Shown here: in pieces, positions 562 to 64,000 of the stretch
How positions within the stretch are numbered: the stretch's first letter is position 1
Layout: each line of letters begins with the position of its first letter
Assembly (NCBI GenBank): GCA_020859985.1
Contig: JAJBVD010000039.1
Coordinates: 62,001 to 126,000 of the forward strand
DNA from: Clostridiales bacterium
GTDB taxonomy: Bacteria; Bacillota; Clostridia; Lachnospirales; Lachnospiraceae
Reading direction: 5' to 3'
Length of the DNA stretch: 64,000 nt
Program-made: the position numbers and the translations under genes
The notes under the pieces: generated by a model
Databases searched by the model: none
The model's input: the letters and a program-made list of their open reading frames with translations, nothing else
What the model was told of the DNA's origin: nothing

Positions 562-1519
562 AAAATGTCAGATCCGTTCTTCTGACGGGTTGGTCTTCAA
601 GCAAGGAGAGAGAAAGAGTTTACATCTTGGAGGAAGCACTCACCAGATTCTCTCTGCCACGCGCTGCAGCTTCCTCGGCTTTTTTCGAAACCCGAGGACA
701 ATCATCCTCTTCCTTTTTGGCGTGGTGCTCTGCTTTTTGCTGAGCAGCCGGGTCACGGAGGTGGCTGAATATTACGGGACGACAATGCAGGCAGCAGAGC
801 CATTTATCTGGACATTCGGTGATTCTACCGCGATCCTGCTGATATCCCTGCTTCTGATCCTTCTGTTTTCTGATCTGCCAAAGCTGACGCCATTTACGCC
901 GTTTCATCTGATGCGGACCACGAAAAAACGCTGGCTGATCTCGCAGCTGCTCTATATCATGCTTTGCACAGCGTTGTACATTCTCTTTATTCTGACTGTC
1001 ACAGCTGTACTCTGCATGAAATATTCCTACACTGGAGATTTATGGAGTGAAACGGCGGCCATCCTTGGTTATTCCTCTTTAGGCGATCAGCTGAATGTTC
1101 CATCTACTGTCAAAGTAATGGAGAGCATTACCCCGATCGGCTGTATGCTGCAAGTCGCCCTGTTGATGTTTGCTTATAGTCTGGCGCTTGGATTTCTGAT
1201 TTTGCCGGGCAATCTGCTGTTCGGAAAAAAGACCGGGATGTTTTTCGCTCTGCTCTACAGCCTGTACGGATTTCTGCTCGACCCGGATGTACTTGGGAAA
1301 ATGCTGGGGCTTGAGACCTGGGAACTCTATCGAGTCCGCAGTATTGTCGGCTGGATCAGCCCGCTGAACAACGCGGTCTATGGGATGCATGATTTCGGAT
1401 ATGACAACCTGCCGTCCATCGCGCAGTCTTTGATGATCTTCGGAGGAATACTGGCAGCTGGAATTATCATTTCCTGGCGGGCAGTAAAGAAATATAATTT
1501 TACGTTTCTGGGGACGTGA
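551..1519 (+). CDS. Multispanning membrane protein, putative ABC-2-like permease
   Basis: This integral membrane protein of about 322 residues has roughly six hydrophobic segments (for example IILFLFGVVLCFLLSS, ILLISLLLILLFS and WLISQLLYIMLCTALYILFI). The layout resembles ABC-2-type export permeases, with a large extracytoplasmic loop between the first two helices. I chose the ATG at 551, which overlaps the kinase by 11 bp and has AAAGGAA about 8 bases upstream; an in-frame ATG at 482 would add 23 basic residues that look like kinase-frame shadow. A lipoprotein, a second membrane protein and an ABC ATPase follow on the same strand, so it is probably one half of a heteromeric exporter. The family is not recognised with certainty and the substrate is unknown. 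Confidence 0.7.
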   Translation: MLYKKCQIRSSDGLVFKQGERKSLHLGGSTHQILSATRCSFLGFFRNPRTIILFLFGVVLCFLLSSRVTEVAEYYGTTMQAAEPFIWTFGDSTAILLISLLLILLFSDLPKLTPFTPFHLMRTTKKRWLISQLLYIMLCTALYILFILTVTAVLCMKYSYTGDLWSETAAILGYSSLGDQLNVPSTVKVMESITPIGCMLQVALLMFAYSLALGFLILPGNLLFGKKTGMFFALLYSLYGFLLDPDVLGKMLGLETWELYRVRSIVGWISPLNNAVYGMHDFGYDNLPSIAQSLMIFGGILAAGIIISWRAVKKYNFTFLGT

Positions 1520-1824
1520 TATCGGAGCAAGAAACAAGCCTATTCTCTTTGATGAGGATGCGCAGGAGCTATCGCCTGCAATGGAAAAAGCATTTTCACT
1601 TGCTGCAAAAAGCAGAAACAGAGTTCGGAATAAATGAAATTCGATTCGTCAATAACGTTTACAATTTGGTTACAGCCTGGCAAGGACTTGGCAATATCTT
1701 TCCTGGTATACTGTGGTCGTAAGAAGAAAACCTATGACAGATAAGGGACAGCTACCGAGCCATCGAGTAAATCTCGATTTAAAATGGTGAGGCTCTCTGT
1801 TCCGCATATCGAAAGGGGAGCATT
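1520..1824 (+). other. Intergenic region with no convincing gene
   Basis: No open frame here has both a good start and a ribosome-binding site. One frame just after the upstream stop reads like protein (DIGARNKPILFDEDAQELSP) for about 39 codons but has no start, and may be a decayed gene end. A long hairpin occupies the 3' part and is listed separately. Confidence 0.5.
1745..1803. repeat. Long imperfect hairpin before the lipoprotein gene
   Basis: Nested inverted arms are visible: GGGACAG with CTGTTCC, GAGCC with GGCTC, CCAT with ATGG and CGAG with CTCG. The inner part (CCATCG...CGATTTAAAATGG) resembles the core hairpin of the MITE-like elements at 55013 and 63658 (CCATCG...CGATTTTAAATGG). 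The hairpin ends about 20 bases before the lipoprotein start, so it would lie in that gene's leader. It could be an attenuator, a stabilising 5' structure or a decayed mobile element. Confidence 0.5.
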
Positions 1825-3435
1825 ATGAAAAAAAGAAGACATTACCTTGCTCTGATACTTAGCGCAGCGTTGTTGTCGGGCTGCGCTGCCACACCGGACA
1901 GCAGTATAGTGCGGCAGAAGGGAAGCCAGAGTCAGGCTAATTATCGTGAGGCAGATGCAGATGCTGATACGGAAGCAGAGGCATCAGCAGACGCAGAGGA
2001 TCAAAGTGGTTCGAATGACAGTTTATCCGGTGAGACGCAGAATGTTCTCGCCACTCGTCTTGGCGTACCGGATACCTACACCGCAACAGCCTCCACATCC
2101 GATGGAAGCTTTACCATGACCAGTAACGCTACAGTTGAAGTGCCGGATGTTTCACAGGTGCCGGTTTACTCGGTTTCTCAGAAGGAATTCAATCAGGATT
2201 TTATTGACCTGGTGACGGAAGCTTTTTTCGGGGACAGCCCGGTTTACGATTGGGCTTATTACTACCAGACGACAAAGGCGGAGGCGTTAGAGAAATTAAA
2301 TGAGCTGAAAGAGTACCAGGCGGAGGGAAATACAGACCCATACGGTTATATCGAAGCGGCGAGAGAAAACGGTGTGTTTGAGGATGGAGCGGTTACGGAG
2401 AGCGATATTTACAATCTTCAGGAAGAAATTGATGAGTGGGAGCAGGTTTACGCGGAAGCTCCGGAGACACTGGAAAAGGCGGAAGTTACTCCCGGTTTTG
2501 GTGTGACTTCTTACGAGGATGAGAATGGAAACACAGTGTACTACGATGATTATTTTTTCGGAGTTGCAGAAAGAGAGGATGGACTTTTTTCCTATATTTT
2601 GAAATATTCATCCTCGACACCGATGTCGATTCAAATTTCCCGTTATACGGATAAAGAAGAGATAGCAGAGGATGTCAGCTGGGAGGAAACATACTATGAT
2701 TCCAAGGCTTTTGCTTCCAATGCATATCGTCCCACGCAGGAGAAGTGTGAGGAGCTGGCGGGAATCACGGTAGAGGAGGCGATTGCAATTTCGGACACAT
2801 ATATGGAGCAGCTGGGGCTGTCTGATGAATTCTCTGTGGGGTTCACGACGCATGCATGGAAGAATCTGGAGAGCAGCAGCATTACATCCGATACGTATAC
2901 GGCAAGCTGTATCGACGGCGGCTGGTACATTGTCTATACACGGACACTCGACGGGATCCCCGTTACCTACGAGATGAACGAGGGCGGTGGTCTGGAATCC
3001 ATAGAAAGCACGACGGAGCCGTGGTGCTATGAATTCGTGACCTTTATTGTGAATGCGGATGGATTGCAAGAAGCAGAGATTCAGAACTTGTACGAAATCG
3101 GGGAAAAGAAGTACGAGAATGTGGATATGCTTTCTTTTTCTGAGATAGCGGAAATATTTGAGCAGATGATCGTGATTCAGAATACAGACAGCTACAATGA
3201 TTCCGCAAGTCTGGAAATTACAGATGTCACTCTTGGATATATGCGCATCTATGATCCGGGTGCGGACAGCCGCAGCGGAACGCTTGTGCCTGTGTGGGAT
3301 TTCTTTGGAAATGAGGAGGTACACAGCTCATACGATGGGGTGGAATACACGAATTACATTGACTACCCCGGCAAAAGCTTCCTGACGATCAATGCGGCGG
3401 ACGGTACAATCATCGACCGCAGTCTGGGGTATTAG
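1825..3435 (+). CDS. Secreted lipoprotein of unknown function
   Basis: This 536-residue protein has a lipoprotein signal peptide (KKRRHYLALILSAALLSGC, lipobox LSGC, Cys about residue 20), so it should be lipid-anchored on the outer face of the membrane. An Ala/Asp/Glu-rich linker (residues about 40-75) precedes a large acidic globular part rich in Tyr, Glu and Asp with no motif I can name. The start is supported by GAAAGGGGAG 6-8 bases upstream. Its stop directly abuts the next membrane gene, and it sits between two permease-like genes and an ABC ATPase. It therefore probably works with the exporter as an extracytoplasmic partner. It resembles uncharacterised lipoproteins found beside ABC genes in Lachnospiraceae (possibly the DUF6034 group), but I cannot confirm the family. 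Confidence 0.8.
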   Translation: MKKRRHYLALILSAALLSGCAATPDSSIVRQKGSQSQANYREADADADTEAEASADAEDQSGSNDSLSGETQNVLATRLGVPDTYTATASTSDGSFTMTSNATVEVPDVSQVPVYSVSQKEFNQDFIDLVTEAFFGDSPVYDWAYYYQTTKAEALEKLNELKEYQAEGNTDPYGYIEAARENGVFEDGAVTESDIYNLQEEIDEWEQVYAEAPETLEKAEVTPGFGVTSYEDENGNTVYYDDYFFGVAEREDGLFSYILKYSSSTPMSIQISRYTDKEEIAEDVSWEETYYDSKAFASNAYRPTQEKCEELAGITVEEAIAISDTYMEQLGLSDEFSVGFTTHAWKNLESSSITSDTYTASCIDGGWYIVYTRTLDGIPVTYEMNEGGGLESIESTTEPWCYEFVTFIVNADGLQEAEIQNLYEIGEKKYENVDMLSFSEIAEIFEQMIVIQNTDSYNDSASLEITDVTLGYMRIYDPGADSRSGTLVPVWDFFGNEEVHSSYDGVEYTNYIDYPGKSFLTINAADGTIIDRSLGY

Positions 3436-4164
3436 ATGGATTTTACCAGGATGCTGCATGATAAAAAACTGTATCTGGCGGTGCTGCTTTCCGTAGCGGC
3501 TATCATAGCAGGGACCATCTGGCCGGAGACGAAAAAAGAGTCGCCTCTGGCCAGCGGTACCTTTCTGGAACTGCTGAACAGCTCCCTGCAATCGCAAATT
3601 GTACTTTTTATTTTGCCGCTCGCCGCCGTCCTGCCCTGTGGGGAGGAGTTTCTGCGGGAAGAGAATTCCCATTTCCTACGCTTTCTGATTATCCGTCGAA
3701 GCAAAGCAGGTTATTGCCTGGACAAGGTGGTGACGACCGCACTTTCCGGCGCGATTGTCTGGCTTTTTGGGACATTTTTCGCGGGGCTTTTCTTTTTTTT
3801 CTTTTTTTTCAGCCGCGAAGCACTCTGGGACTGGCCGATGAATACCATTTTTACTCTGTTTACCACGCTGGGACGCATCCTGCTATCAGCTTCGTCCCTC
3901 GCCAGTTTTTCCGCAGTCGCCGGTGTGCTCGGCGGAAGCGTATATCTGGCATTCGGTGTGCCATTTCTTTTGTGGTACGCCTGCATCATCCTGCGGGAGC
4001 GTTATTTCGAATCGCTTTACTGCATTGACCCGACAGAATGGATCACGGCAAAAAATGCCTGGGGAAGCAACCAGATCGGACTCTGGATGTTTTTGTTATT
4101 ACTCGCGCTATTTTGTACAGTGCTGCACGGGATCGTGCTGGTTTGGAAACTGAGAGAAATTTGA
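3436..4164 (+). CDS. Putative ABC-2-type permease subunit
   Basis: This 242-residue integral membrane protein has about six predicted helices, including LAVLLSVAAIIAGTIW, IVLFILPLAAVLPCGEEFL and MFLLLLALFCTVLHGIVLVW. Its start follows the lipoprotein stop with no gap, which suggests translational coupling. It is followed by an ABC ATPase, so with the membrane protein at 551 it likely forms the channel of an export complex. A Phe-rich helix (residues about 118-126) is encoded by a T-rich tract with runs of seven and eight Ts at about 3788-3810; length changes there would shift the frame. No family signature beyond the general ABC-2-like layout was recognised. Confidence 0.72.
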   Translation: MDFTRMLHDKKLYLAVLLSVAAIIAGTIWPETKKESPLASGTFLELLNSSLQSQIVLFILPLAAVLPCGEEFLREENSHFLRFLIIRRSKAGYCLDKVVTTALSGAIVWLFGTFFAGLFFFFFFFSREALWDWPMNTIFTLFTTLGRILLSASSLASFSAVAGVLGGSVYLAFGVPFLLWYACIILRERYFESLYCIDPTEWITAKNAWGSNQIGLWMFLLLLALFCTVLHGIVLVWKLREI

Positions 4165-26742: not shown

Positions 26743-26769
26743 GTAACCGTTCAGTACCTTCACAGTTAC
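26743..26769. repeat. 27-bp miniature of the GTAAC palindromic element
   Basis: GTAACCGTTCAGTACC...ACAGTTAC matches one end of the elements at 55013 and 63658 and is itself palindromic. The flanking octamers GTCATTTC and GTCATCTC match at 7 of 8 positions, as expected for a target duplication. It sits directly after the stop codon of the giant surface protein gene. Confidence 0.65.
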
Positions 26770-39895: not shown

Positions 39896-39916
39896 GTAAC
39901 TGTTCTGAACAGTTAC
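39896..39916. repeat. 21-bp miniature GTAACTGTTC palindrome
   Basis: GTAACTGTTC and GAACAGTTAC form a perfect palindrome around one base. The flanking octamers ACAGATTC and ACGGATTC match at 7 of 8 positions. It lies in the hisG-hisD gap; the hisG stop overlaps the right flank. Related to the elements at 26743, 55013 and 63658. Confidence 0.6.
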
Positions 39917-53942: not shown

Positions 53943-54965
53943 TCACATCGCAAACTGTATCACACAGTAAGCCGCGTATATCGCGAGCAGTCCAATACCC
54001 TGTACCCGATAGAGCTTCTCTTTGAAAAGAGCTGGAAGTGTCAAAATCAGCATAACCGCAAACATGACAGGGATGTCCAGCACAAGAGATGCGTTCATCC
54101 CGAACAATGTTGAAGAAGTCGGAATCGAAAATGGATTCAGCGTGATCGAAATTCCGCAGACCAGCACAAGGTTGAACAGGTTCGCTCCAATTACATTTCC
54201 AAGAGAGAGTGCCCCATGTCCTTTGCTTAAGGAAGTGATCGCAGTCACAAGCTCCGGCAGTGAAGTGCCAAGGGCAACAAAGGTAAGAGCAATCACAGAT
54301 TCCGGTACTCCAAGCGCTTCCGCGATCAATGTGCCATTATCAACAAGAAGATTTGCACCAATCGCAATCAAAGCGGCACCAACAATCAGAAGAACAATTT
54401 CTTTGATGAGCGTGGATTCTGCAGAATCTGGTGTCTTGTCAGTCTCGGTTACGCTCTGCTCTGCTCCATCCGTAACTTCACTGGAATCTCCTGTTCCGGA
54501 AAGCGTTTCCTCCCCGCGGGTCATCTGCCAGATGGTCAGCAGCATATAAATCAGGAAAAGCAGAAGCAGGATCACACCCGTTATCCTTGTAAACGAACCG
54601 CTGGTATATGCAATCCCTGCAAAGAAAATGGCGGCTCCAAAAAAGAAAAGAACAGGAAGAAGTAAAGACTTCCTTGAAGCTTTTCCCGGGCGTACCGCAA
54701 TCGTGACCGCAGCGATCAGAGAGGTGTTACAGATAACAGAACCAATCGCATTCCCATAAGCAATCTGGCTATGTCCTCCAACAGCCGAGGTTGCAGATAC
54801 CATTACCTCCGGCAGCGTCGTCCCGATTGAAACAACAGTCGCTCCGATTAAAAGCTCCGGAAGATGAAAACGACCTGCAATCCCCGTCGCACCATCCACA
54901 AACCAGTCTCCTCCTTTAATCAGCAGAATAAGTCCCACAAGAAACAACAGCACAGGAACTAACAT
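53943..54965 (-). CDS. Calcium/sodium antiporter (CaCA family, YrbG-like)
   Basis: This 340-residue protein has about ten helices in two inverted repeats. The alpha-repeats TTLPEVMVSATSAVGGHSQI...GNAIGSVICN and TSLPELVTAITSLSKGHGAL...GNVIGANLFN carry the conserved acidic ion-binding residues. It exchanges Ca2+ or another divalent cation for Na+ or H+. A cytoplasmic linker between halves (about residues 155-185) is Ser/Thr/Glu-rich. GGAGGAG precedes the ATG. A MITE-like element lies upstream. Confidence 0.94.
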   Translation of the reverse strand: MLVPVLLFLVGLILLIKGGDWFVDGATGIAGRFHLPELLIGATVVSIGTTLPEVMVSATSAVGGHSQIAYGNAIGSVICNTSLIAAVTIAVRPGKASRKSLLLPVLFFFGAAIFFAGIAYTSGSFTRITGVILLLLFLIYMLLTIWQMTRGEETLSGTGDSSEVTDGAEQSVTETDKTPDSAESTLIKEIVLLIVGAALIAIGANLLVDNGTLIAEALGVPESVIALTFVALGTSLPELVTAITSLSKGHGALSLGNVIGANLFNLVLVCGISITLNPFSIPTSSTLFGMNASLVLDIPVMFAVMLILTLPALFKEKLYRVQGIGLLAIYAAYCVIQFAM

Positions 54966-55012
54966 ATATTCTCCTCCCTCAGATATGATCAGGTGCTAAT
55001 TATAGATGGCAG

Positions 55013-55146
55013 GTAACTATTCAGGACAGTACCTCGCACTTGCTGCGAGGTACGTATGAAGACGTTTATTCTATAGGAAAAAGTCCCATCGCGCAGCGAT
55101 TTTAAATGGACTTTTTCCCGTAACTGTGAAGGTACTGAACAGTTAC
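55013..55146 (+). mobile_element. 134-bp MITE-like element, copy A (IS66-type ends)
   Basis: The termini are GTAACTATTCAG and CTGAACAGTTAC, inverted with one mismatch. Both sides carry the perfect 8-bp direct repeat GATGGCAG (55005-55012 and 55147-55154). Internal hairpins are GTACCTCGCA/TGCGAGGTAC (55029-55053) and GGAAAAAGTCC/GGACTTTTTCC. No coding capacity. It is nearly identical to the inverted copy at 63658. GTAA ends and an 8-bp duplication are the signature of IS66-family transposition; the transposase is not in the window. Confidence 0.85.
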
Positions 55147-55231
55147 GATGGCAGTATGCACCCGCCGACTTTTGATTGTCAAGCCAAATTCTTATTTTTA
55201 TTTATTTTCGCTAAAAACGGACAAAAAAATC

Positions 55232-55259
55232 TTGTAATTTCAGAAAAAGTTGCTATAAT
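55232..55259 (+). promoter_or_regulatory. mgsA promoter
   Basis: TTGTAA (55232-55237) and TATAAT (55254-55259) are spaced by 16 bp, about 57 bases before the start. Apart from this and the MITE-like element, the 54966-55315 interval holds nothing I can call. Confidence 0.65.
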
Positions 55260-55315
55260 GGCTTTGTAGTTATGTTAAAAGGGGTTAGTTTGAAATCAGA
55301 AAGGTAGACATCTTG

Positions 55316-55723
55316 ATGAACATCGGATTTATCGCGCACAACAACAAGAAAACACTGATCGAGAATTTTTGCCTCGCGTATAAATACATTCTTTCCAGAC
55401 ATCACCTGTACGCGACGGGGGGAACTGGAAGAAGAATAGAGGAAGTGACCAATCTTAAGGTTTATAAGTTCCTGCCCGGAAGCGTGGGGGGTGACAAGCA
55501 GTTTATGGATATGATTGAACGGAACAGTATGGACATGGTGATCTTTTTTTACAATCCGATCACTGCGAGTCCGAATGATCCGGATATTTTCGCGATTTCC
55601 AGATGCTGTGATGAATACAATATCCCGATCGCTACGAACATCGCCACCGCCGAATCTCTTGTGCTCGGTCTTGCAAGAGGCGATCTCGACTGGCGGCTGA
55701 ACATCCGCTCTGATGATATCTGA
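55316..55723 (+). CDS. mgsA: Methylglyoxal synthase
   Basis: This 135-residue enzyme converts dihydroxyacetone phosphate to methylglyoxal and phosphate, a bypass of lower glycolysis when phosphate is short. MNIGFIAHNNKKTLIENF, LYATGGTGRRIEE (phosphate loop), LPGSVGGDKQF (catalytic Asp) and YNPITASPNDPDIFA are diagnostic. The ATG at 55316 has AAAGGTAG eight bases upstream; a TTG at 55313 is less likely. A terminator follows. Confidence 0.95.
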   Translation: MNIGFIAHNNKKTLIENFCLAYKYILSRHHLYATGGTGRRIEEVTNLKVYKFLPGSVGGDKQFMDMIERNSMDMVIFFYNPITASPNDPDIFAISRCCDEYNIPIATNIATAESLVLGLARGDLDWRLNIRSDDI

Positions 55724-55771
55724 CAGCCTTATTTTATCTTGTTTTATCAGAAAGCGGTCATTATTTCAAAA

Positions 55772-55813
55772 ACAGCCTGCATCGGTACTCTGCAAGCTGT
55801 CTTATTTTGTTTT
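55772..55813 (+). terminator. Terminator of mgsA
   Basis: ACAGCCTGCA and TGCAAGCTGT form a stem around a nine-base loop, followed by CTTATTTTGTTTT. Confidence 0.75.
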
Positions 55814-55840
55814 CATAAACAATGTCAAAATCGAAGCGGA

Positions 55841-55892
55841 GCGGAGACCCGGGCGCGGCCTTAGCCGCAAAACACCTTGCCCGGCTCTGCGC
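55841..55892. other. GC-rich nested hairpin between convergent genes
   Basis: GCGGAG..CCGGGC pairs with GCCCGG..CTCTGC, enclosing GCGGC-CTTA-GCCGC. It is an island of high GC in AT-rich spacer DNA between mgsA and a DUF6465 gene. It could be a small structured RNA, a second terminator or a foreign repeat. Confidence 0.45.
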
Positions 55893-55902
55893 ATATAAAA
55901 AA

Positions 55903-55928
55903 GCGTTGACCAGTTACTAGGTCAACGC
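55903..55928 (-). terminator. Terminator of the DUF6465 gene
   Basis: GCGTTGACC is perfectly inverted as GGTCAACGC across eight bases, and in the minus direction TTTTTTATA follows. Confidence 0.88.
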
Positions 55929-55956
55929 AATATTCCTTCTTTTATAAAAGAATCAT

Positions 55957-56355
55957 TTACAGATCAACGCTTCCTGATACGTCCCCATTGATCACATAAT
56001 AGGCTTTATTTTCTTCCGGCTTCAGATACAGGGTAATCGTTGCAATGTCGCCGATCTTATTATTGAGTTCCTTGGTCCAAATCTCCTTTACCTGCTTTAC
56101 CAGCTCATCCTTATGAATCTCTTTGCCGGCATACTGCAGATAAACTTCTTCTTTCAACGGCTTCTTTGTAGCCTTAGCCACCGCTTTCTTCGCCTCTGTT
56201 GTCACGTTATCTGCTTTCTTGGCAGCTTCTTTAGCAGCTACAGCCGCCTTTTCAGTCGCCTTCTTCGTAGCCTTTTTCGTTGTCGCCACAGCTTTCTTAG
56301 CTGCCTCCACTACTTCCTCAACCTGTTCTTCCTGTGTTTTTTTGGTTCTTGGCAT
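55957..56355 (-). CDS. Lys/Ala-rich DUF6465-type protein
   Basis: This 132-residue protein has a long Ala/Lys/Thr-rich helical N-terminal part (residues about 10-75, KKATEKAAVAAKEAAKKA) resembling histone H1 C-terminal tails. A conserved C-terminal domain (about 76-132, EVYLQYAGKEIHKDELVKQV) follows. The ATG at 56355 has GGAGG eight bases away. The basic helix suggests DNA or polyanion binding; the C-terminal domain resembles a family annotated DUF6465 in Lachnospiraceae, from memory. Function is unknown. A terminator ends the gene. Confidence 0.78.
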   Translation of the reverse strand: MPRTKKTQEEQVEEVVEAAKKAVATTKKATKKATEKAAVAAKEAAKKADNVTTEAKKAVAKATKKPLKEEVYLQYAGKEIHKDELVKQVKEIWTKELNNKIGDIATITLYLKPEENKAYYVINGDVSGSVDL

Positions 56356-56370
56356 TTTTCTTTCCTCCAA

Positions 56371-56663
56371 ATAATGAATTAAAAGCTTTTGTATCCGATT
56401 TCTGTACTTATTTCTTTAAGTCTTATTAAATTTATTACTCCGTACGACGCCATAATATAACAAATGTTCAAACAATACAAGACACAATATTCCCAAAAAT
56501 ACAGGGATTTTAAAGAGTTTTCCATATAAATCAACGGTAAGTATCCTGATTTTCCCTCTGCTGTCTCTGCAAAACTCAACAATTTATTGATACAATATCT
56601 CAAATAAAGAAACATGTAGTTCTTCAATACCATCACAGTAACAGGAAGATCAGCCAAAATGTC
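56371..56663. other. Spacer upstream of the DUF6465 gene
   Basis: 293 AT-rich bases lie between recG and the Lys/Ala-rich gene. A 92-codon frame on the minus strand exists but has no credible ribosome-binding site and an atypical composition, so I do not call it. Confidence 0.4.
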
Positions 56664-58778
56664 TCAGAGATTTAAAGACTCGCTCTGGCGGGAAAGCAAT
56701 TCCTCATAACGTTTCTTCAGCTCCATGTGCTCAGGGAGACTTAATTCCGGATCCTCATTTTGAATATCATTTACAGCCTCATTTGCAAGTTTTAAAACAT
56801 CCGCATCCGTATAAACATCAGCAAGCTGAAAATTCATAAGGCCGCTCTGCCGAATTCCAAACAAATCCCCCGGTCCCCTCAGCTGCAAATCCTTCGAAGC
56901 AATTTCGAATCCGTCATTCGTATGATTCAGAATATCCAGCCGCTCCTGAATCCGTGCTCCATCAACCGCATGAAGAAAAATACAGTAAGATTGTGCATCG
57001 CCTCTCCCCACGCGCCCTCGAAGCTGATGAAGGGAAGAAAGTCCGAAACGTTCCGCGTTTTCTACCATCATCACGGTCGCATTGGGAACATTCACGCCAA
57101 CCTCTACAACCGTTGTCGAAACCAGTACCTGAATCTTATTTTCAAGGAATTTTTCCATGATTTCATTTTTTTCAGCGGCCTTCATACGTCCATGAAGATA
57201 TTCAACAGCAATACCGGCCGGAAGTATCCGGCGAAGTTTTTGTGTATAATCCACGACATTCTCCAGATTGCAGGCATTGGAAAGACTGCCATCCTGTTTA
57301 TCGGCTTCTCTGGAGGTTTCCGCAGCAGTGCCCTCGTCTACCATTGGACAGATCACATACGCCTGATGTCCCATCTCTACCTGTTTCTGAATAAACTGAT
57401 ACGCTTTGGGCCGGTATGAGGGCCCCACCACACAGTTTTTTATCGGCAAACGCTTTGCAGGCATCTCATTCAAAACAGAAATATCCAAATCACCGTACAG
57501 AATCACTGCAAGTGTCCGGGGAATGGGTGTTGCACTCATCACTATGGTATGCGGGGTACCTCCCTTTTGTGAAAGCAATTCTCTTTGTTTTACACCGAAG
57601 CGATGCTGTTCATCTGTAATGACCAAAGCAAGTGTCTGAAAAGTTACTTTTTCCTGTATCAACGCATGTGTACCAATCACAATTGCAGCTTCACCGGATT
57701 CAATTCTGGAATACGTCTCCCTCTTCTGCTTAGCTGTCATGGAGCCGGTCAGCAAAACAGCCTCAAAAGGCAGATTATTGTTCTGGATCAGTTCAAGAAT
57801 CGAATGGAAATGCTGTCTGGCAAGCACTTCCGTCGGCGCCATCATAGCACCCTGATATCCGTTTTCTGCAACCATAAAAAGTGCCAGCACTGCCAGTATC
57901 GTCTTTCCCGAGCCGACATCTCCCTGTATCAGCCTTGCCATCGCAGTCTGTCCCTGCAATTCTCTTTCAATGTCCGCCCAAACGCGCTGCTGTGCTCCTG
58001 TCAGCTCATATGGCAGCGAAGAGATTACCTGATCTACAGCTTTTGCGGGATGAATCCGAAAGTCACAGACTGCTTTCGTCCGATGTTCTTTCAGGCTGCG
58101 AAGCTGCAGGAGAAAAAAGAAAAATTCGTCAAATACCAGTCGTCTTCTTGCCGTACGGAGCGCTTCAGCATCTTTGGGAAAATGCATCTGTCTGATTGCA
58201 TCTGTGTATGGACAAAGGCTGTAACGTTCACGTTCATACAGAGGAAGATAATCTTCAACATCCTTTTCTGTCAGATCATCCAGTACCTGCCGTACCGCTT
58301 TTTGCACCATATTAACGGTCAGACCTTTTGTCAGAGAATATACCGGCTGCAGTGAATTCGTCAGATTCTGATATTGCTCCGTATGAAAAACAGCCGGCTG
58401 CTCAATGAGCAGCCGCCAGCCTTTTTTCTTTATTTTTCCACGGAAGATATAAATCATCCCCGTACGAAGATAATTCCTGATATAAGGCATATTGTACCAG
58501 ATGAGCTGCAATTCATCCCTGCCGTCGCAGCAAACGGCGCTCGACACGCAGCGTCCCCGATAATACCGGTTCGCGATCGGTGCCGTCAGAGCTGCTGACA
58601 CAGCAGCCACTTCCCCTTCTGAGAGACTGCCAATTGCACGGGAATCTCCATATTGTTCATACGTACGAGGATAATATTCAAGCAGATCGCCGATATTATC
58701 AATGCCCACGGTTGAAAAACGCTGTTTTGTTTTTTCTCCAATCCCTTTCAGTGAATCCAACGGAGAATTCAGTTCCAT
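56664..58778 (-). CDS. recG: ATP-dependent DNA helicase RecG
   Basis: This 704-residue helicase remodels stalled replication forks and Holliday junctions. It begins with an OB-fold wedge domain (residues about 1-150, SLKGIGEKTKQRFSTVGI), then two RecA-like domains with Walker A GDVGSGKTILA, DEQHRFGVKQ (motif II), SATPIPRTLA and the C-terminal TRG region (QLRGRVGRGDAQSYCIF). GGAGGAGCT precedes the ATG at 58778; a longer start is unlikely. It follows yloV, as in other Firmicutes. Confidence 0.97.
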   Translation of the reverse strand: MELNSPLDSLKGIGEKTKQRFSTVGIDNIGDLLEYYPRTYEQYGDSRAIGSLSEGEVAAVSAALTAPIANRYYRGRCVSSAVCCDGRDELQLIWYNMPYIRNYLRTGMIYIFRGKIKKKGWRLLIEQPAVFHTEQYQNLTNSLQPVYSLTKGLTVNMVQKAVRQVLDDLTEKDVEDYLPLYERERYSLCPYTDAIRQMHFPKDAEALRTARRRLVFDEFFFFLLQLRSLKEHRTKAVCDFRIHPAKAVDQVISSLPYELTGAQQRVWADIERELQGQTAMARLIQGDVGSGKTILAVLALFMVAENGYQGAMMAPTEVLARQHFHSILELIQNNNLPFEAVLLTGSMTAKQKRETYSRIESGEAAIVIGTHALIQEKVTFQTLALVITDEQHRFGVKQRELLSQKGGTPHTIVMSATPIPRTLAVILYGDLDISVLNEMPAKRLPIKNCVVGPSYRPKAYQFIQKQVEMGHQAYVICPMVDEGTAAETSREADKQDGSLSNACNLENVVDYTQKLRRILPAGIAVEYLHGRMKAAEKNEIMEKFLENKIQVLVSTTVVEVGVNVPNATVMMVENAERFGLSSLHQLRGRVGRGDAQSYCIFLHAVDGARIQERLDILNHTNDGFEIASKDLQLRGPGDLFGIRQSGLMNFQLADVYTDADVLKLANEAVNDIQNEDPELSLPEHMELKKRYEELLSRQSESLNL

Positions 58779-58826
58779 AGCTCCTCCATGCCTCTTACCA
58801 CTAGTGACGTGTCCCGCAGCCGACAC

Positions 58827-60563
58827 CTACTCGACCGATACAATATAGTAATAAATCGGCTGCCCGCCATAATTCAGTTCCACATCACAGTCCGGATAGC
58901 GCTCCTCTATACGCCCGCGAAGCACATCTGCTTCCTCTTCTTTCATATCCTCGCCATAATAGATGCTGATCAGCTCAGCCTCCTCTGTTATCATATTGGC
59001 AATCATTTCTTCAGCTACTGTTTCCGTATCCTTGCCTACTGCCAGAATGGAATGGTCGCCGACGCCCATAATATCCCCGGCACTGATGACCCGATTCTCG
59101 ATATGCGTATCACGCACAGCATAAGTCACCTGTCCGGTTTTCACATTTTCAATCTCCAGCTCCATAATCATAGCGTTCTCATCAGGAGTTTTCTCCGGCA
59201 CATAACTGATAACCGCCGTAATCCCCTGAGGAACCGTTTTCGTTGGTATCACAAAAATATTTTTGTCCTTCGTCAATGACTTTGCCTGATTCGCAGCAAG
59301 AATAATATTCTTATTATTCGGAAGAATAAAAATATTTTTCGCATTCACCTGCGCTATCGCATTCAGCATATCCTCCGTACTGGGATTCATCGTCTGACCG
59401 CCTTCGATCAGGCAGTCTACTCCAAGCTCCCGGAAAATATCCGCAATGCCATCCCCGATGGAAACAGAGATAAAGCCTGTCTCTTTCAGTTCCACAAGCT
59501 TCGGCATATCAGGAAGTGCAAACGGATCCTCAACACTCAAATCAGCGGAAGGAGCAGTACCCTGCACATTTTCAGAATCATCGCCCTTCCGGGAATCATC
59601 ACGCATTCTGGAATCATCACGCTTTCTGGAATCATCACGCGATTCCATACGGCAATTGCGGATGTTGATACCCGTAAGTGCACCGAGCTTTAAGGCGCGC
59701 TGCAGGGCATGTCCGGGATCATTCGTGTGAAGATGAACCGATACTTTCCCGTCCGACAGCGTCAGAACAACGGAGCCTCCAATCGACTCCAGATAAGTCC
59801 GAAGCTTCCTATCCGTCTCTTCCGTATATTCCGTCTCCGGAGTCATAATAAACTCCGTGTGATAAATGAAAGAGGTCAAATCTTCCGCAGACACTTCTTC
59901 GGATGCAGATGTCTGATCAATCGTGTTCTCCGGAACCTCAATCCCGTTATATGCGTCAAACGCTCCCTTTAATACCTGAACAAGACCCTGCCCGCCGGAA
60001 TCGACTACTCCCGCCTCCTTTAAGACAGGCAGCATCTCCGGAGTCTGCGCCAAAACTTCCTCGCAACGGGAAAGAACTGCACCCAGCAAATCCTTCATCT
60101 CAATATCCGGATTCTCTTCCAACAGCTCCACGGCACATTCAGCCCCGCCTTTCGCAACTGTAAGAATTGTCCCTTCCTTCGGCTTCATGACAGCCTTGTA
60201 AGCAGTCTCAACCGCTTTTTGCAATGCAGCAGTCAGGACAACCGGGGTAATCTCATCCTCGGAACGAATCACTTTTGTAAAACCACGTAAAAGCTGCGAC
60301 AGGATCACACCCGAATTGCCGCGAGCCCCGCGAAGTGATCCGGAAGATGCCGCTCGTGCGAAAGAATCCATCGTCAATGGATCAAGTGCAGAGACTTCCT
60401 TCACTGCAGACATGATCGTAAGCGTCATATTTGTGCCGGTATCGCCGTCCGGCACCGGAAAAACATTGAGTTCATTGATCCACTCTTTTTTCGCTTCCAG
60501 ATTTCTGGCACCAGCCAGGAACATTTTCGCACATAGAGCAGCATTTATTGTATTCGTATTCAC
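58827..60563 (-). CDS. DAK2-domain protein, YloV/FakA-like fatty acid kinase subunit
   Basis: This 578-residue protein has an N-terminal DhaL/DAK2 kinase-like domain (residues about 8-200, NVFPVPDGDTGTNMTLT with the metal-binding Asp motif, and RGARGNSGVILSQLLRG). A middle region and a C-terminal FakA-type domain (about 340-578, GDGIADIFRELGVDCLIEGGQTMNPSTE, FILPNNKNIILAA) follow. FakA phosphorylates fatty acids bound to FakB for phospholipid synthesis. A charged tandem insert sits between them. It is downstream of the Asp23/Gls24 gene, the usual neighbour. Confidence 0.92.
   Translation of the reverse strand: MNTNTINAALCAKMFLAGARNLEAKKEWINELNVFPVPDGDTGTNMTLTIMSAVKEVSALDPLTMDSFARAASSGSLRGARGNSGVILSQLLRGFTKVIRSEDEITPVVLTAALQKAVETAYKAVMKPKEGTILTVAKGGAECAVELLEENPDIEMKDLLGAVLSRCEEVLAQTPEMLPVLKEAGVVDSGGQGLVQVLKGAFDAYNGIEVPENTIDQTSASEEVSAEDLTSFIYHTEFIMTPETEYTEETDRKLRTYLESIGGSVVLTLSDGKVSVHLHTNDPGHALQRALKLGALTGINIRNCRMESRDDSRKRDDSRMRDDSRKGDDSENVQGTAPSADLSVEDPFALPDMPKLVELKETGFISVSIGDGIADIFRELGVDCLIEGGQTMNPSTEDMLNAIAQVNAKNIFILPNNKNIILAANQAKSLTKDKNIFVIPTKTVPQGITAVISYVPEKTPDENAMIMELEIENVKTGQVTYAVRDTHIENRVISAGDIMGVGDHSILAVGKDTETVAEEMIANMITEEAELISIYYGEDMKEEEADVLRGRIEERYPDCDVELNYGGQPIYYYIVSVE
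59577..59646. repeat. 18-bp tandem repeats inside the yloV-like gene
   Basis: Units of the form GAATCATCACGC plus six variable bases occur about four times and encode RDDSRK/RDDSRM/RDDSRK. They lie in the linker between the kinase and C-terminal domains. Unit number could vary by slippage without changing frame. Confidence 0.7.
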
Positions 60564-60578
60564 TGTCAGGTTCCTCCA

Positions 60579-60935
60579 TTAATCAATGACCCGTACGCCT
60601 TCGACGTACATATTGATCTTTTCAACTTCCATACCGGTGAATTCTTCCACACGATACTTAACGCTGCTAAACAGATTATCCGCAACAGCTGAAATACTCA
60701 CTCCATAAGAAACAATCACATGAAAATCTATGGTAATCCGGTTGTCCTCGATCTTCACATTCAATCCGCGCTCCAGACTGTCTTTTCGTAAGAGTCTCAC
60801 AAGGCCATCCTTCATATTCACGATTGCCATGCCGACAATGCCGAAGCATTCAACCGCAACACTGCCTGCATAGGTAGCAATGACATTCGTATCGATCACA
60901 ATCGAGCCAAGCTCATTACTCATGCGTCCTTTCAT
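60579..60935 (-). CDS. Asp23/Gls24-family envelope stress protein (YloU)
   Basis: This 118-residue protein belongs to the Asp23/Gls24 family, recognised by GSIVIDTNVIATYAGSVAVECFGIVGMA and the C-terminal GMEVEKINMYVEGVRV. In many Firmicutes it is co-transcribed with yloV and recG, as here. The ATG at 60935 has GGAGGTGG nine bases upstream; an internal ATG at 60923 is possible. The family is linked to cell-envelope homeostasis; the exact role of YloU is unknown. Confidence 0.92.
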   Translation of the reverse strand: MKGRMSNELGSIVIDTNVIATYAGSVAVECFGIVGMAIVNMKDGLVRLLRKDSLERGLNVKIEDNRITIDFHVIVSYGVSISAVADNLFSSVKYRVEEFTGMEVEKINMYVEGVRVID

Positions 60936-61042
60936 AGACAGGAACCACCTCCGTCTTTCCATTTAATGAGGCTATTCTAACAGAAAAGAAGATATTTGCC
61001 AATCATATTTTTCTGAATCTGTTACTTTTTTTCAATTTATAC

Positions 61043-61071
61043 TTGCCAAACACGATTTCATCTGATAGAAT
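61043..61071 (+). promoter_or_regulatory. rpmB promoter
   Basis: TTGCCA (61043-61048) and TAGAAT (61066-61071) are spaced by 17 bp, about 60 bases before rpmB. Confidence 0.65.
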
Positions 61072-61132
61072 AACAACGTTGTGAGTCTGTTGATAATACA
61101 GATGACTGAATTCAGGGCGAGGAGGTGCAGTT

Positions 61133-61321
61133 ATGGCAAAGTGTGCTATTTGTGATAAATCCGTACATTTCGGCAACCAGGTGAGCCATTCTCACAGAAG
61201 AAGTAATAAAATCTGGAAGTCAAACATTCAGAAAGTCAAAGTAAAAACGGGACCGACTTCTGCAAAAAAGATGTACGTATGTACGAGTTGCCTGAGATCC
61301 GGCAAAGTTGAAAGAGCGTAA
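61133..61321 (+). CDS. rpmB: 50S ribosomal protein L28 (zinc form)
   Basis: This 62-residue bL28 has two CxxC pairs (AKCAICDKS and YVCTSCLRS) that mark the zinc-binding (C+) version. HFGNQVSHSHRRSNKIWKSN is typical. GAGGAGGTG precedes the ATG. It is divergent from the Asp23/Gls24 gene, which is a common arrangement, and is followed by a terminator. Confidence 0.97.
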   Translation: MAKCAICDKSVHFGNQVSHSHRRSNKIWKSNIQKVKVKTGPTSAKKMYVCTSCLRSGKVERA

Positions 61322-61331
61322 ATGAAATATA

Positions 61332-61367
61332 AGCAGCGGGCATTATTATCGTCCGCTGCTTTTTTTC
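61332..61367 (+). terminator. Terminator of rpmB
   Basis: AGCAGCGG and CCGCTGCT form the stem, followed by TTTTTTTC. Confidence 0.88.
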
Positions 61368-61370
61368 AGC

Positions 61371-61508
61371 TTATTCCATAAAAAGATTGTATCCAAGCAG
61401 CAGGAAAAACAGGATCAGCAATGAACTGATCAGAACACTTTCCAAAAACAGCTCTGCGATCATCCCTATGGCAATCCAGAAAAATGTATACCCTATCAGC
61501 CTTTTCAT
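61371..61508 (-). CDS. Small hydrophobic membrane protein, tentative
   Basis: This possible 45-residue protein consists mainly of one or two membrane helices (LIGYTFFWIAIGMIAELFL and VLISSLLILFFLLLGYNLF). It lies between the rpmB terminator and gerW. No ribosome-binding site is obvious ahead of the ATG at 61508, and the frame is open further upstream. I recognise no family. Composition and conservation-like placement near gerW make it plausible but not certain. Confidence 0.4.
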   Translation of the reverse strand: MKRLIGYTFFWIAIGMIAELFLESVLISSLLILFFLLLGYNLFME

Positions 61509-61525
61509 GGCAATCAAACTATGAA

Positions 61526-61555
61526 GTAACCGTACTGCGCCAGCCTCACAGTTAC
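61526..61555. repeat. 30-bp GTAACCGT...ACAGTTAC element-like sequence
   Basis: The ends GTAACCGT and CTCACAGTTAC match those of the 26743 element, but the centre is different and longer, and the flanking octamers do not match. It may be a decayed copy. Confidence 0.35.
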
Positions 61556-61597
61556 CAAACGTTCTCTTTTTCCTATTATATGCAGGAAGAAGCCGCA

Positions 61598-62002
61598 TCA
61601 GAACGTTGTCTCATCTTCCTGCGCTGCGGTATGGATTGCTTCTTCCACATCCGGGTCGGGGTTCTCCTTTTCCTTTCCCCCTGTAAACTTGTTCACAATA
61701 TCCGGTACCATATCAAGCACCTTTGTCACCGGATCCTGATTTCTCACATTGACAAGCTTTGTACAGCCATTCTGGATAACAAGAACTGCGCTCGGGGAAA
61801 TTTTACCGCCCATTCCGCCGCCTCCGCTGTTCTTCTTATCTTCCGCCTTGGCGGACGCTGCCACTCCAAACGCGACATCAACCAGAGGCAGAATGATCGT
61901 ATCTCCGACCGTGATCGGGTCACCCACAACTGTTTTAGTGGTGATAAACTCATCCATCCCCTTGAATAAAGATGCTACTGTGTTCTGAAAATTATCAGCC
62001 AT
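61598..62002 (-). CDS. gerW: Spore germination protein GerW (YtfJ)
   Basis: This 134-residue protein has the GerW pattern: FQNTVASLFKGMDEFI, VVGDPITVGDTIILPLVDVAFGVA, a Gly-rich loop (SGGGGMGGKISPSAVLVI) and a central VNVRNQDPVTKVLDMVPDIV. GerW is a forespore protein needed for germination with some nutrients in B. subtilis. It follows the DUF2953 gene, which is its usual partner (ytfI-ytfJ). Confidence 0.95.
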   Translation of the reverse strand: MADNFQNTVASLFKGMDEFITTKTVVGDPITVGDTIILPLVDVAFGVAASAKAEDKKNSGGGGMGGKISPSAVLVIQNGCTKLVNVRNQDPVTKVLDMVPDIVNKFTGGKEKENPDPDVEEAIHTAAQEDETTF

Positions 62003-62062
62003 ACTGTCATTCTCCTCTTCTTTTCAAATATTATCGTTACAGGAAAACCCGAAACTCTTACA

Positions 62063-63247
62063 TCAGGTTCTGCGGAAAGCCCTGATCAAATGTCGAAGCT
62101 TCTGATTGCGGAAAGCCCAAACAGCCAAAACGACAATGTGAATCAGACGTATATGTCCTGCCACATCAAGCTCCATCTCCAACACGGCGTCCGTAAACTG
62201 AGGTTCCACCTGTATCTTCCGGCACGATACAGGAAGCAAAAGGTACAAAACACCTGTAAGTTCACCCGTCAGAGCCGGATCTCCGGTTCCGAAACGGAGA
62301 TAGCCTTTCCCTTTTCGAACACGAAAATGACGGAGTGTCTGCTTCACTTTATGCCAGATTTCTTCCACCGTATCCACAGCATCATAATCCGCAATCTTCT
62401 GACGGAGAGCAGAGAGCCTACGTGACCATTCTCCAGGCTTTTTTATTAATTTCAGTAATTTCTGTTTCCAACGCTGCAAACGCTGCGGTATTTTTCTTAT
62501 TGTGCCTCCAATGCTGCGGATTTTATACAGCAGGCGTCGAAATATTTTGCTAAAGCCCTTATTTTCCGGCTGACTGTTGAAATCTTTTTCTTCGAAATCT
62601 TTTTCTTCAAAATCTTTTTCTGAGCAATCTTTTTCTGAGCAATCTTTTTCTGAGCAATCTTTTTCTTCGGAAGTTTTGTCTTTAAAATCTTTTTGCTCGG
62701 ACTTCTTTCCAGCAGTCTGTTTTATTCCTTTGTAAGAGGATTCCTGTACAACTGACCCGTTTCCAAAATCTCTCTTCGCTTCAGACTGTTTTTCATTTTC
62801 AGAAGAATTTCTTTTTACTGTCTGTTTTTCGTTTTTAGGAGAAATCTTCTTTACCGGCTGCTTCTCAGTGGTTTTCTTTCTGCTTTCTGAGCTTTTCGCG
62901 TTCTGAGGTCTGCTCTTAGAAGAAGAATTGTTCTTCCTTCTATGTTTGAAAAAAGCCGCAACTTTTTGCGGTTGTATGCCAAATATCCGAACCGTAAGCT
63001 GAAGCGAATCGCGCGAAAATCCTGCATCTTCTTTATTTGGCAAAGACAGCAAAATACGAACAAAAAACAGGTGCAGAAGCCAGCTCACCTGTGCTTCTCC
63101 ACAAGAATCCTCTCCTGTATGAACAAGAATCAGGCGGTAACGCAGAGGCACAAACAGGAGTGCCAAACAAATACAAAGCACCAGCAACAAGAGCACCAGC
63201 AGCAGTATGCCTGTTATTTTTAAAATAGTTAAAATAATATGGAGCAT
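62063..63247 (-). CDS. DUF2953 membrane protein (YtfI-like)
   Basis: This 394-residue protein has one N-terminal helix (ITGILLLVLLLLVLCICLALLFVP) and the DUF2953 pattern in the C-terminal part (YLRFGTGDPALTGELTGVLYLLLPV, VEPQFTDAVLEMELDVAGHIRLI). In between lies a highly charged region (residues about 105-225) rich in Lys, Glu, Asp and Ser with short tandem repeats (EKDCSEKDCSEKD, EEKDFEEKDF). Relatives are usually about 220 residues, so this linker is an expansion. DUF2953 genes are regularly next to gerW. Function is unknown. Confidence 0.88.
   Translation of the reverse strand: MLHIILTILKITGILLLVLLLLVLCICLALLFVPLRYRLILVHTGEDSCGEAQVSWLLHLFFVRILLSLPNKEDAGFSRDSLQLTVRIFGIQPQKVAAFFKHRRKNNSSSKSRPQNAKSSESRKKTTEKQPVKKISPKNEKQTVKRNSSENEKQSEAKRDFGNGSVVQESSYKGIKQTAGKKSEQKDFKDKTSEEKDCSEKDCSEKDCSEKDFEEKDFEEKDFNSQPENKGFSKIFRRLLYKIRSIGGTIRKIPQRLQRWKQKLLKLIKKPGEWSRRLSALRQKIADYDAVDTVEEIWHKVKQTLRHFRVRKGKGYLRFGTGDPALTGELTGVLYLLLPVSCRKIQVEPQFTDAVLEMELDVAGHIRLIHIVVLAVWAFRNQKLRHLIRAFRRT
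62575..62675. repeat. 15-bp tandem repeats inside the DUF2953 gene
   Basis: Units of AATCTTTTTCTTCGA or AATCTTTTTCTGAGC occur about six to seven times and encode EKDFE/EKDCS. Unit number may vary by slippage. The T-run in each unit is a further slippage site. Confidence 0.75.
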
Positions 63248-63257
63248 ATGCGTCCTG

Positions 63258-63626
63258 TCAGCCCTTCTCCAAAAGATACTCTTTGATATCTGCCTTTCCC
63301 GTCTTTTGGTATACCTGATCCGTAATCTGAACCAGAAGCCCTCTTATCTCCTGCTCACCAAATGCAAGTCCAACAATCAAAACCGACGAAGGATCGTGAA
63401 TCCTGTCAATAAAATACTTTTGTGTCACAATCTCCATCTGATTATGATCCTGATCAAGACGAATCAAAAGAAGATAAAGTCCCGGAACCGTGTGACTTTT
63501 CTCGACCATACGTATCAGTTTTTTCTTCTGGCCATGAAATGTCTCACCAATATACAGATCCCGATACCAATGCAATCTCATCCGCCACACACCTTCATAA
63601 CCGAAATGCCGAAACCCCGTCATCAT
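63258..63626 (-). CDS. Conserved hypothetical protein
   Basis: This 122-residue protein has no signal peptide or membrane helix. Visible segments are HFGYEGVWRMRLHWYRDLYIGE near the N-terminus and GLLVQITDQVYQKTGKADIKEYLLEKG at the C-terminus. I recognise no family. It ends 10 bp upstream of the DUF2953 gene, on the same strand, so it probably belongs to the gerW operon. The ribosome-binding site is weak, so 63623 is an equally possible start. Confidence 0.65.
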   Translation of the reverse strand: MMTGFRHFGYEGVWRMRLHWYRDLYIGETFHGQKKKLIRMVEKSHTVPGLYLLLIRLDQDHNQMEIVTQKYFIDRIHDPSSVLIVGLAFGEQEIRGLLVQITDQVYQKTGKADIKEYLLEKG

Positions 63627-63657
63627 CTGTTCTGCGGAATCCCGGCATACTCCATTC

Positions 63658-63792
63658 GTAACTGTTCAGTACCTTCACAGTTACGAGGGAAAAGCCCATT
63701 TAAAATCGCTTCGCGATGGGGCTTTTCCCCACATGCTGTATGTTTTCATACGTACCTCGCAGCAAGTGCAAGGTACTGTCCTGAATAGTTAC
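63658..63792 (-). mobile_element. 135-bp MITE-like element, copy B (IS66-type ends)
   Basis: This is the inverted counterpart of the element at 55013. It is flanked by the perfect 8-bp direct repeat CTCCATTC (63650-63657 and 63793-63800). The ends are GTAACTGTTCAG and CTGAATAGTTAC. Its core hairpin is GGGAAAAGCCC/GGGCTTTTCCC, in which two base pairs differ from copy A in a compensatory way. No coding capacity. Confidence 0.85.
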
Positions 63793-63806
63793 CTCCATTC
63801 AAAAGC

Positions 63807-64000
63807 CTAATAATACTTCCGGCTTCCCCAAAGATTGTTCTTTTTTAAACTCAGATACTCACTGTAAGCTTTCTCAAGAATCATCTTCTCATTCGAAAAT
63901 TTGAGCAGATGATAGGCTTCATGATACTTATAGTATCCAGAATCAACAAAATATTCTTCCCGCTGTGGTTTGCTGTAGTAGCTGTCTGCCATCATCAGGT
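63807..64000 (-). CDS. Hypothetical protein, possibly 5'-truncated by the window edge
   Basis: The visible part begins MMADSYYSKPQREEYF and is Tyr/Lys/Glu-rich for 62 residues. The frame stays open to the window edge, so the true start may lie outside. I recognise no family. It is separated from the hypothetical gene at 63258 by the MITE-like element. Confidence 0.45.
   Translation of the reverse strand, partial: LMMADSYYSKPQREEYFVDSGYYKYHEAYHLLKFSNEKMILEKAYSEYLSLKKNNLWGSRKYY

Follow-up and report, generated by a model that had tools for sequence, protein, structure and literature searches.

The window analyzed here is a 64,000-nucleotide stretch of the genome of a Clostridiales bacterium of the family Lachnospiraceae (GCA_020859985.1, contig JAJBVD010000039.1, positions 62,001 to 126,000 of the forward strand). 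It contains two full copies of a miniature inverted-repeat transposable element (MITE), one on each strand, and each is flanked by a perfect 8-bp target duplication that differs from that of the other copy. A preliminary description of this DNA had given the coordinates, lengths and repeats exactly. It had also named two differences between the hairpin arm pairs of the copies, which are present and compensated. The copies and their parts are as follows.

55005..55012, no strand: target duplication GATGGCAG, left copy, 8 bp
55013..55146, plus strand: full MITE copy 1, 134 bp, ends GTAACTATTCAG...CTGAACAGTTAC
55029..55053, plus strand: hairpin 1 of copy 1, arms 55029-55038 and 55044-55053
55076..55118, plus strand: central hairpin 2 of copy 1, arms 55076-55086 and 55108-55118
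55120..55146, plus strand: 27-bp right-end palindromic module of copy 1, with 169 genome copies at three or fewer mismatches
55147..55154, no strand: target duplication GATGGCAG, right copy, 8 bp; the site is element-free in genomes G047, G008 and G013
63650..63657, no strand: target duplication CTCCATTC, 8 bp
63658..63792, minus strand: full MITE copy 2, 135 bp
63658..63684, minus strand: 27-bp right-end module of copy 2
63687..63729, minus strand: central hairpin 2 of copy 2, arms 63719-63729 and 63687-63697
63752..63776, minus strand: hairpin 1 of copy 2, arms 63767-63776 and 63752-63761
63793..63800, no strand: target duplication CTCCATTC, 8 bp

These copies very probably belong to a non-autonomous MITE family that owes its insertion in trans to an ISBst12-type transposase, from the IS66 family of insertion sequences (ISs), and that then eroded in place. 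BLAST of copy 1 against its own genome (3.80 Mb, 89 contigs) gave 43 matches (254 first-look candidates, 40 of them scored), in agreement with the dispersed family of dozens of independently inserted copies that had been suspected. The left 20 bp of copy 1 has 71 matches in the genome at two or fewer mismatches, compared with 5 for a reversed-pattern control. The elements have inverted ends, a fixed 8-bp duplication and many dispersed copies, as is usual for MITEs, and at 134 and 135 bp they are too short for a transposase gene. The preliminary description had anticipated empty sites in sister strains, and the copy 1 site contains no element in three sister species (G047, G008 and G013), where the right flanks are 87-89% identical and the left flanks can be aligned. 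In five more distant species (84-85% identity in the right flank, left flanks unaligned) there is no element within 300 bp upstream.

Matches occur in 11 of the 41 genomes searched (25 of the genus and 16 of the order). Seven of the 11 are multi-copy and all seven are of the window's genus, the window's own genome and six others; the other four have no more than one or two short matches each. At least 104 stretches across named genomes contain the exact left 20 bp of the element, and the 80 listed are all titled Lachnospiraceae or Clostridiales metagenome-assembled genomes (MAGs). No plasmid gave a BLAST match to copy 1, and no viral contig has an exact match to the left end or to the 27-bp module. 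Among phage records, four unannotated human-faecal virome scaffolds match. Rfam covariance models gave no match at E-values up to 1 in 54800-64000 and none at gathering thresholds across the window.

The loci read contain 277 unique end pairs, with transposase loci excluded from the element counts. Flanking repeats match at 8/8 positions in 79 pairs and at 7/8 in 32, so that 111 of 277 reach at least 7/8, compared with 0.33% under random flank pairing; in a shifted register 1-5 pairs remain. The duplicated fraction is an underestimate because the 277 pairs include many internal 27-bp modules without a duplication of their own. For pairs of at least 100 bp, 7/8 or 8/8 duplications flank 20 of 33 in the window's own genome and 68 of 89 elsewhere. 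Lengths of the duplication-bearing elements cluster at 134-135 and 174-175 bp, and the others span 21 to 281 bp. One locus (L235, 2572-2852) contains two tandem elements with GAGTCGGT after each right end, as if an element and its duplication had been doubled. Another class of short element, with one strand starting GTAACTATTCAGAACAGCAG, was found at L092, L093, L097 (own genome), L176 and L183. A longer inverted repeat forms the end of at least three of these (L097, L176 and L183), and the class is possibly a second MITE family with the same ends.

The ends suggest a probable partner. ISGst1, on the Geobacillus plasmid pGS18, has ends GTAACTATTCAG / GTAACTATTCAC and an 8-bp duplication, AAAAGAAC; its ends are identical to the MITE left end at 12/12 and 11/12 positions. 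A Chlorohelix IS66 element has ends GTAACAATTCAG / GTAACAGTTCAG with the 8-bp duplication CATTATTG, and one from Nostoc has GTAACTGCCCAG / GTAACTGCCTAG with ATTTTACG (8 bp). These are the three examined among the best 15 of 110 plasmid records that match the transposase of locus L129, and all three gave such ends and 8-bp duplications. The two ends of L129 itself read GTAACTGTTCAG and GTATCTGTTCAG, and its transposase scores 222.6 bits, above the NCBIfam IS66 cut-off of 180. ISGst1 probably belongs to the ISBst12 group, in which we place it by its single open reading frame (ORF). In the available part of its description, ISDge4, a member of this group shown to transpose, has ends GTGACTACTCAGCA / GTAACTGCTCAGCA, one of them with GTAACTGCTCAG, and duplicates 8 bp, CCTCGATG (PMC12898284).

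More divergent elements are found closer to the host. Locus L116, in a relative, contains a complete IS66-like element of 2267 bp (1218-3484) with ends GTTACTATTCAC and duplication ACTATTTT. Its two ORFs encode a divergent 520-amino-acid transposase (P0001) and a 102-amino-acid protein without an assigned role. A similar complete element is present at L133 (duplication GCCGGAAT) and a third at L141. L116 and L133 come from the same bacterial family as the window and have GTTACT ends and 8-bp duplications; relatives of P0001 occur in 22 of 299 genomes of that family. An end-like site accompanies 24 of the 32 loci in the P0001 set (some of them overlapping), with 3.5 expected. Among other IS66 loci (Pfam PF03050) it accompanies 1 of 13, with 0.9 expected, and because this is chance level we reject the classical IS66 as the partner. 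Ends of the classic type are given as GTAAGCGTCCGG in the accessible portion of PMC12888890.

The MITE ends thus appear to fit the ISBst12 type and the divergent two-ORF relatives rather than the classical IS66. The preliminary description had suggested an IS66 transposase; the family's ends and its 8-bp duplications hold up, with the candidate narrowed to the ISBst12 type (ISGst1, ISDge4) and its divergent relatives. Judging by its ends, the MITE may be mobilized in trans: an ISBst12-type transposase would recognize GTAACT(A/G)TTCAG ends, insert the MITE and leave an 8-bp duplication. As the elements carry no gene, they are not members of IS66, only candidate IS66-driven derivatives. Possible partner termini would continue the MITE ends as GTAACTATTCAGGACAGTACC / GTAACTGTTCAGTACCTTCAC.

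In each of the 86 end pairs of 130-137 bp, the last 27 bp form a palindrome, GTAACTGTGAAGGTACTGAACAGTTAC, at six or fewer mismatches; it consists of two inverted 8-bp arms and an 11-bp loop. The window's own genome has 169 sites at three or fewer mismatches and none for the reversed control. We read 104 of the 169 with their flanks (the remaining 65 were not read); 42 lie inside a longer element and 62 are solo. Solo copies have 8/8 flanking repeats in 9 of 62 cases and 7/8 in 21 of 62, where 0.13 would be expected at 7/8 or better. The window contains one solo copy and one shorter palindrome, which is a probable shorter relic.

26743..26769, minus strand: solo 27-bp relic, flanks GTCATTTC / GTCATCTC, 7/8 match
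39896..39916, plus strand: 21-bp palindrome of back-to-back ends (GTAACTGTTCTGAACAGTTAC), flanks ACAGATTC / ACGGATTC, 7/8 match

An orthologue of the 26743 relic was sought in relatives, which are too diverged there, and none aligned. Also in the window, at 55832-55900, is a second, unrelated repeat, roughly 70 bp long and likewise dispersed (GAAGCGGAGCGGAGACCCGGGC...GCCCGGCTCTGCGC); it has further 82-99% matches in the same genome and in many genomes of the genus.

Orthologous sites were compared for 165 elements, all with flanks that match at 6/8 positions or better (those below 6/8 were left out), and at two of these sites the 27-bp copies are erosion relics. In the first, 27 bp in the window's own genome (L314) face a 135-bp element in G014 (L035), with flanks 91.5% identical. 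In the second, a 27-bp right end (L277, own genome) faces a 37-bp left end (L169), with flanks at 91.9%. A 175-bp element (L158) faces one of 134 bp (L033), with flanks at 95.5% and a left match of only 64 bp. Other orthologous pairs have equal lengths, a truncated copy (L166) or a different sequence. Read by eye, the deletion junctions sit in short direct repeats. The 27-bp form has its junction in GTAACT(A/G)T (outer and internal), a 50-bp form in CCTCG and a 78-bp form in CGTA. Slippage across hairpins is a natural mechanism for such deletions and probably caused them here. Erosion after insertion would proceed in place through deletions of this kind that remove hairpins. At its commonest endpoint, the outer GTAACT would be joined to the internal GTAACT (position 108), giving a 27-bp hairpin that retains the target duplication. 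The remaining 27-bp copies are likely to be erosion relics as well. The preliminary description had mentioned neither this erosion nor the orientation bias of the elements reported below.

The 27-bp palindrome might instead be mobile itself, as a minimal element of two inverted ends from which the 134-bp MITE is a larger derivative. The solos are certainly many (62 of the 104 sites read, 9 and 21 of them at 8/8 and 7/8), one of them (L290) faces an element-free site (L184) in a loose 79% alignment, and another occurs in a human-gut virome record (L389). We consider this origin quite improbable, as at the two orthologous sites described above the other species holds a full copy or the opposite end, and the outer and internal GTAACT(A/G)T supply the direct repeat that a deletion in one step requires. 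In addition, among copies in the window's own genome with at least 7/8 matching flanks, the duplication is perfect in 9 of 30 solos versus 14 of 20 elements of at least 100 bp; fewer perfect duplications are expected if solos are older relics. A mixed origin, in which an ISBst12-type transposase moves the 27-bp palindrome and the erosion of larger copies is a second source, seems to us just as doubtful. If it were true, the palindrome would rank with the smallest DNA units able to transpose; one genome holds at least 62 solos, about half of which keep a recognizable 8-bp duplication. The solo module of the human-faecal scaffold L389 (about 2501-2527) directly follows a terminator-like hairpin and a T run.

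The full elements have a strong predicted fold, with RNA fold z-scores of -6.5 to -7.3 when both strands of each window copy are folded. From 81 distinct copies of 130-137 bp we excluded two very divergent ones and compared the remaining 79. Watson-Crick pairs make up 95.4% of the 11 hairpin 2 pairs across this set, versus 79% (maximum 83%) when arms are shuffled among copies and at most 61% when one arm is slid, so the conserved pairing noticed earlier in two copies extends to the family. Hairpin 2 has seven extra pair types, versus one or two when slid. Hairpin 1 has three main arm pairs (in 38, 19 and 7 of the 79 copies), each fully paired. Two of the human-gut virome scaffolds (L387 and L388, both unannotated “Bacteriophage sp.”) contain 133-bp copies with the same three-hairpin plan, other compensated bases and perfect 8-bp flanking repeats (AATAACAA and GAAAAATA), which indicates that pairing has been kept over some distance. 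Internal stems retain their pairing by paired changes.

Selection on the RNA or on the DNA may maintain the pairing, or selection may not be needed. In the latter case the stems could stay paired by self-templated correction, in which strand switching in quasi-palindromes copies one arm onto the other. Two-sided changes far exceed one-sided ones at variable pairs, as expected for such copying; pair 9 of hairpin 2, for example, is AT in 23 copies, GC in 49 and CG in 5, versus AC in 1 and GT in 1. Used as a test of RNA against DNA, the mispairs do not clearly separate the two. Summed over pairs 1-11 of hairpin 2, G-U cells exceed A-C cells only slightly (18 versus 11), which would suit correction at the DNA level. 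Over all predicted pairs, the counts are 69 versus 15 (37 versus 12 once the outermost pair, 66-114, is removed), a lean toward RNA. The test leans toward RNA in one count and less so in the other, and neither the mispair cells nor the element copies are independent. The human-gut copies, with the same plan and other compensated bases, are compatible with both views. We regard self-templated correction as plausible, and rate it clearly below an even chance.

Several observations weigh against the proposed family history of mobilization in trans, erosion in place and paired change. An IS66-like element with the same termini had been predicted for the host, and no complete one with MITE-type ends was found in the window's own genome, a draft MAG in which repeats may be missing. 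Its only Pfam IS66 match is a fragment of a classical transposase (L106:3717-3950). Searches with P0001 and the L129 transposase in 47 genomes of the genus yielded no transposase with both MITE-type ends, and the ends of L129 have no flanking duplication. The nearest candidate in the genus (L258, genome G061) is an IS66-like frame of 694 amino acids with a single end-like site, GTATCTATTCAG, at 2828 on the minus strand. Its second end was not found in the available stretch, and the frame is possibly a surviving partner lineage. Among end pairs up to 4.5 kb apart with a duplication of at least 7/8 (transposase loci excluded), the maximum length is 281 bp, and thus no version with a gene was found. 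The copy 2 site gave no clean empty-site alignment because the relatives are too diverged and rearranged there; the best of them (G008) differs by other insertions. A direct tie between a 27-bp copy and a different form is seen at only two orthologous sites, and the covariation involves about six main arm haplotypes, hence few independent events. Since no cognate transposase was found in the window's own genome, we infer the partner; it may be lost, unassembled or too diverged.

The full elements are not placed at random with respect to genes, which we called with a codon-model finder whose training set was 23 long ORFs from the window. Solos with less than 6/8 matching flanks were excluded from the orientation count, and two clusters of mixed-type sites were set apart. 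With orthologues merged there are 101 full-length sites. Between co-directional genes, 55 are in sense and 12 in antisense orientation (p = 1e-7); the remaining sites are divergent (19), convergent (13) or one-sided (2). The sense-to-antisense ratio of full copies is 20:1 in the window's own genome and 35:11 in others, and a cruder longest-ORF rule gives 42:12 and 36:13. Shorter intermediate forms are at 11:0 (n = 17) and solo relics at 20:8 (n = 44; 15:7 in the window's own genome).

A role as transcript terminator had been suggested for the fold, and more broadly it could be a terminator or mRNA-stability element adopted by neighbouring genes. Full sense copies do often directly follow a gene, with 28 of 55 starting within 17 bp after the upstream stop codon, compared with 1 of 12 antisense copies. 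Such a role is nevertheless unlikely. A stem followed by a U-tract, as in intrinsic (SPRITE-like) terminators, occurs in sense in only 5 of 79 copies, compared with 23 of 79 in antisense; the window copies have no U-tract 3′ of hairpin 2, and several insertion sites are empty or replaced in sister species. We also rejected the purging of terminators as the cause of the orientation bias. The subfamily that bears the terminator-like pattern is no more biased than the rest (12:5 versus 30:7, p = 0.49).

The sense bias could arise from the insertion mechanism, through orientation to transcription or to the replication fork, and not from selection. The solo relics are biased similarly to the full copies (20:8 versus 55:12, Fisher p = 0.28), and the 12:5 of the terminator-like subfamily likewise fits a bias set at insertion. 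In the window's own genome, the full copies at 20:1 versus solos at 15:7 give a hint that antisense full copies are lost. A selective reduction of antisense full copies to relics is unsupported, given the pooled p of 0.28. We see an insertion bias as a real possibility, somewhat short of an even chance. Most likely in our estimation, and still tentative at just under an even chance, is that copies persist only at sites where the mRNA tolerates the co-transcribed fold; such retention would fit the bias toward the sense orientation. The bias of full copies between co-directional genes is a testable puzzle.

MITEs linked to ISs through matching ends are a known kind, with examples in RUP, BOX, ERIC, NEMIS, MITECca01 and MITEPsy1. 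Searches of the literature, which covered part of the published work, returned no IS66- or ISBst12-type MITE in the text available and no report of a Lachnospiraceae MITE family. The family described here appears to be new, and its decay series is unusually clear. The ISBst12 group of IS66 gains a plausible MITE family, and the basic picture of transposition is unchanged. Of the known systems, the ISBst12 group itself (ISDge4, and ISGst1 by inference) is closest at the ends: the 12-bp end GTAACTATTCAG is identical in ISGst1, the motif is present in ISDge4, and the duplication is 8 bp. ISs of this group carry a transposase, whereas the MITEs here are gene-free at 21-281 bp, and the ends diverge past 12 bp.

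Palindromic repeats of the REP and REPIN type and the small dispersed repeats of cyanobacteria are likewise very short, palindromic and numerous, as is the 27-bp module with its 169 sites. To our knowledge, REP insertions leave no target duplication. In contrast, 30 of the 62 solo 27-bp copies are flanked by 7/8 or 8/8 repeats, where 0.13 would be expected. REPINs are proposed to use RAYT transposases, according to the accessible part of PMC3116915. RUP and BOX of Streptococcus pneumoniae are also short, folded and dispersed, with target duplications; in the portions available, RUP is tied to an IS by sequence likeness and BOX is modular (PMC3049150, PMC2229807). Their IS partners are different, and the same portions describe no series of 27-bp relics for either. 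ERIC and the Correia elements (NEMIS) are folded MITEs within transcripts. The effect of ERIC on transcripts depends on orientation and NEMIS are proposed targets of RNase III, as far as the available sections report (PMC3049150, PMC2229807), whereas the family here is known from sequence alone. Also tied to an IS family by their ends are MITECca01 of Cardinium (169 copies, with an IS982-type parent; PMC9769881) and MITEPsy1 of Pseudomonas syringae (caught transposing, with an IS5-type parent and a 4-nt duplication; PMC3189936), again from the parts of these papers at hand. Within the present family, single sites show the decay of a MITE to 27-bp palindromes that resemble REP-type repeats, and such decay may be a source of short dispersed palindromes without known origin in other genomes.

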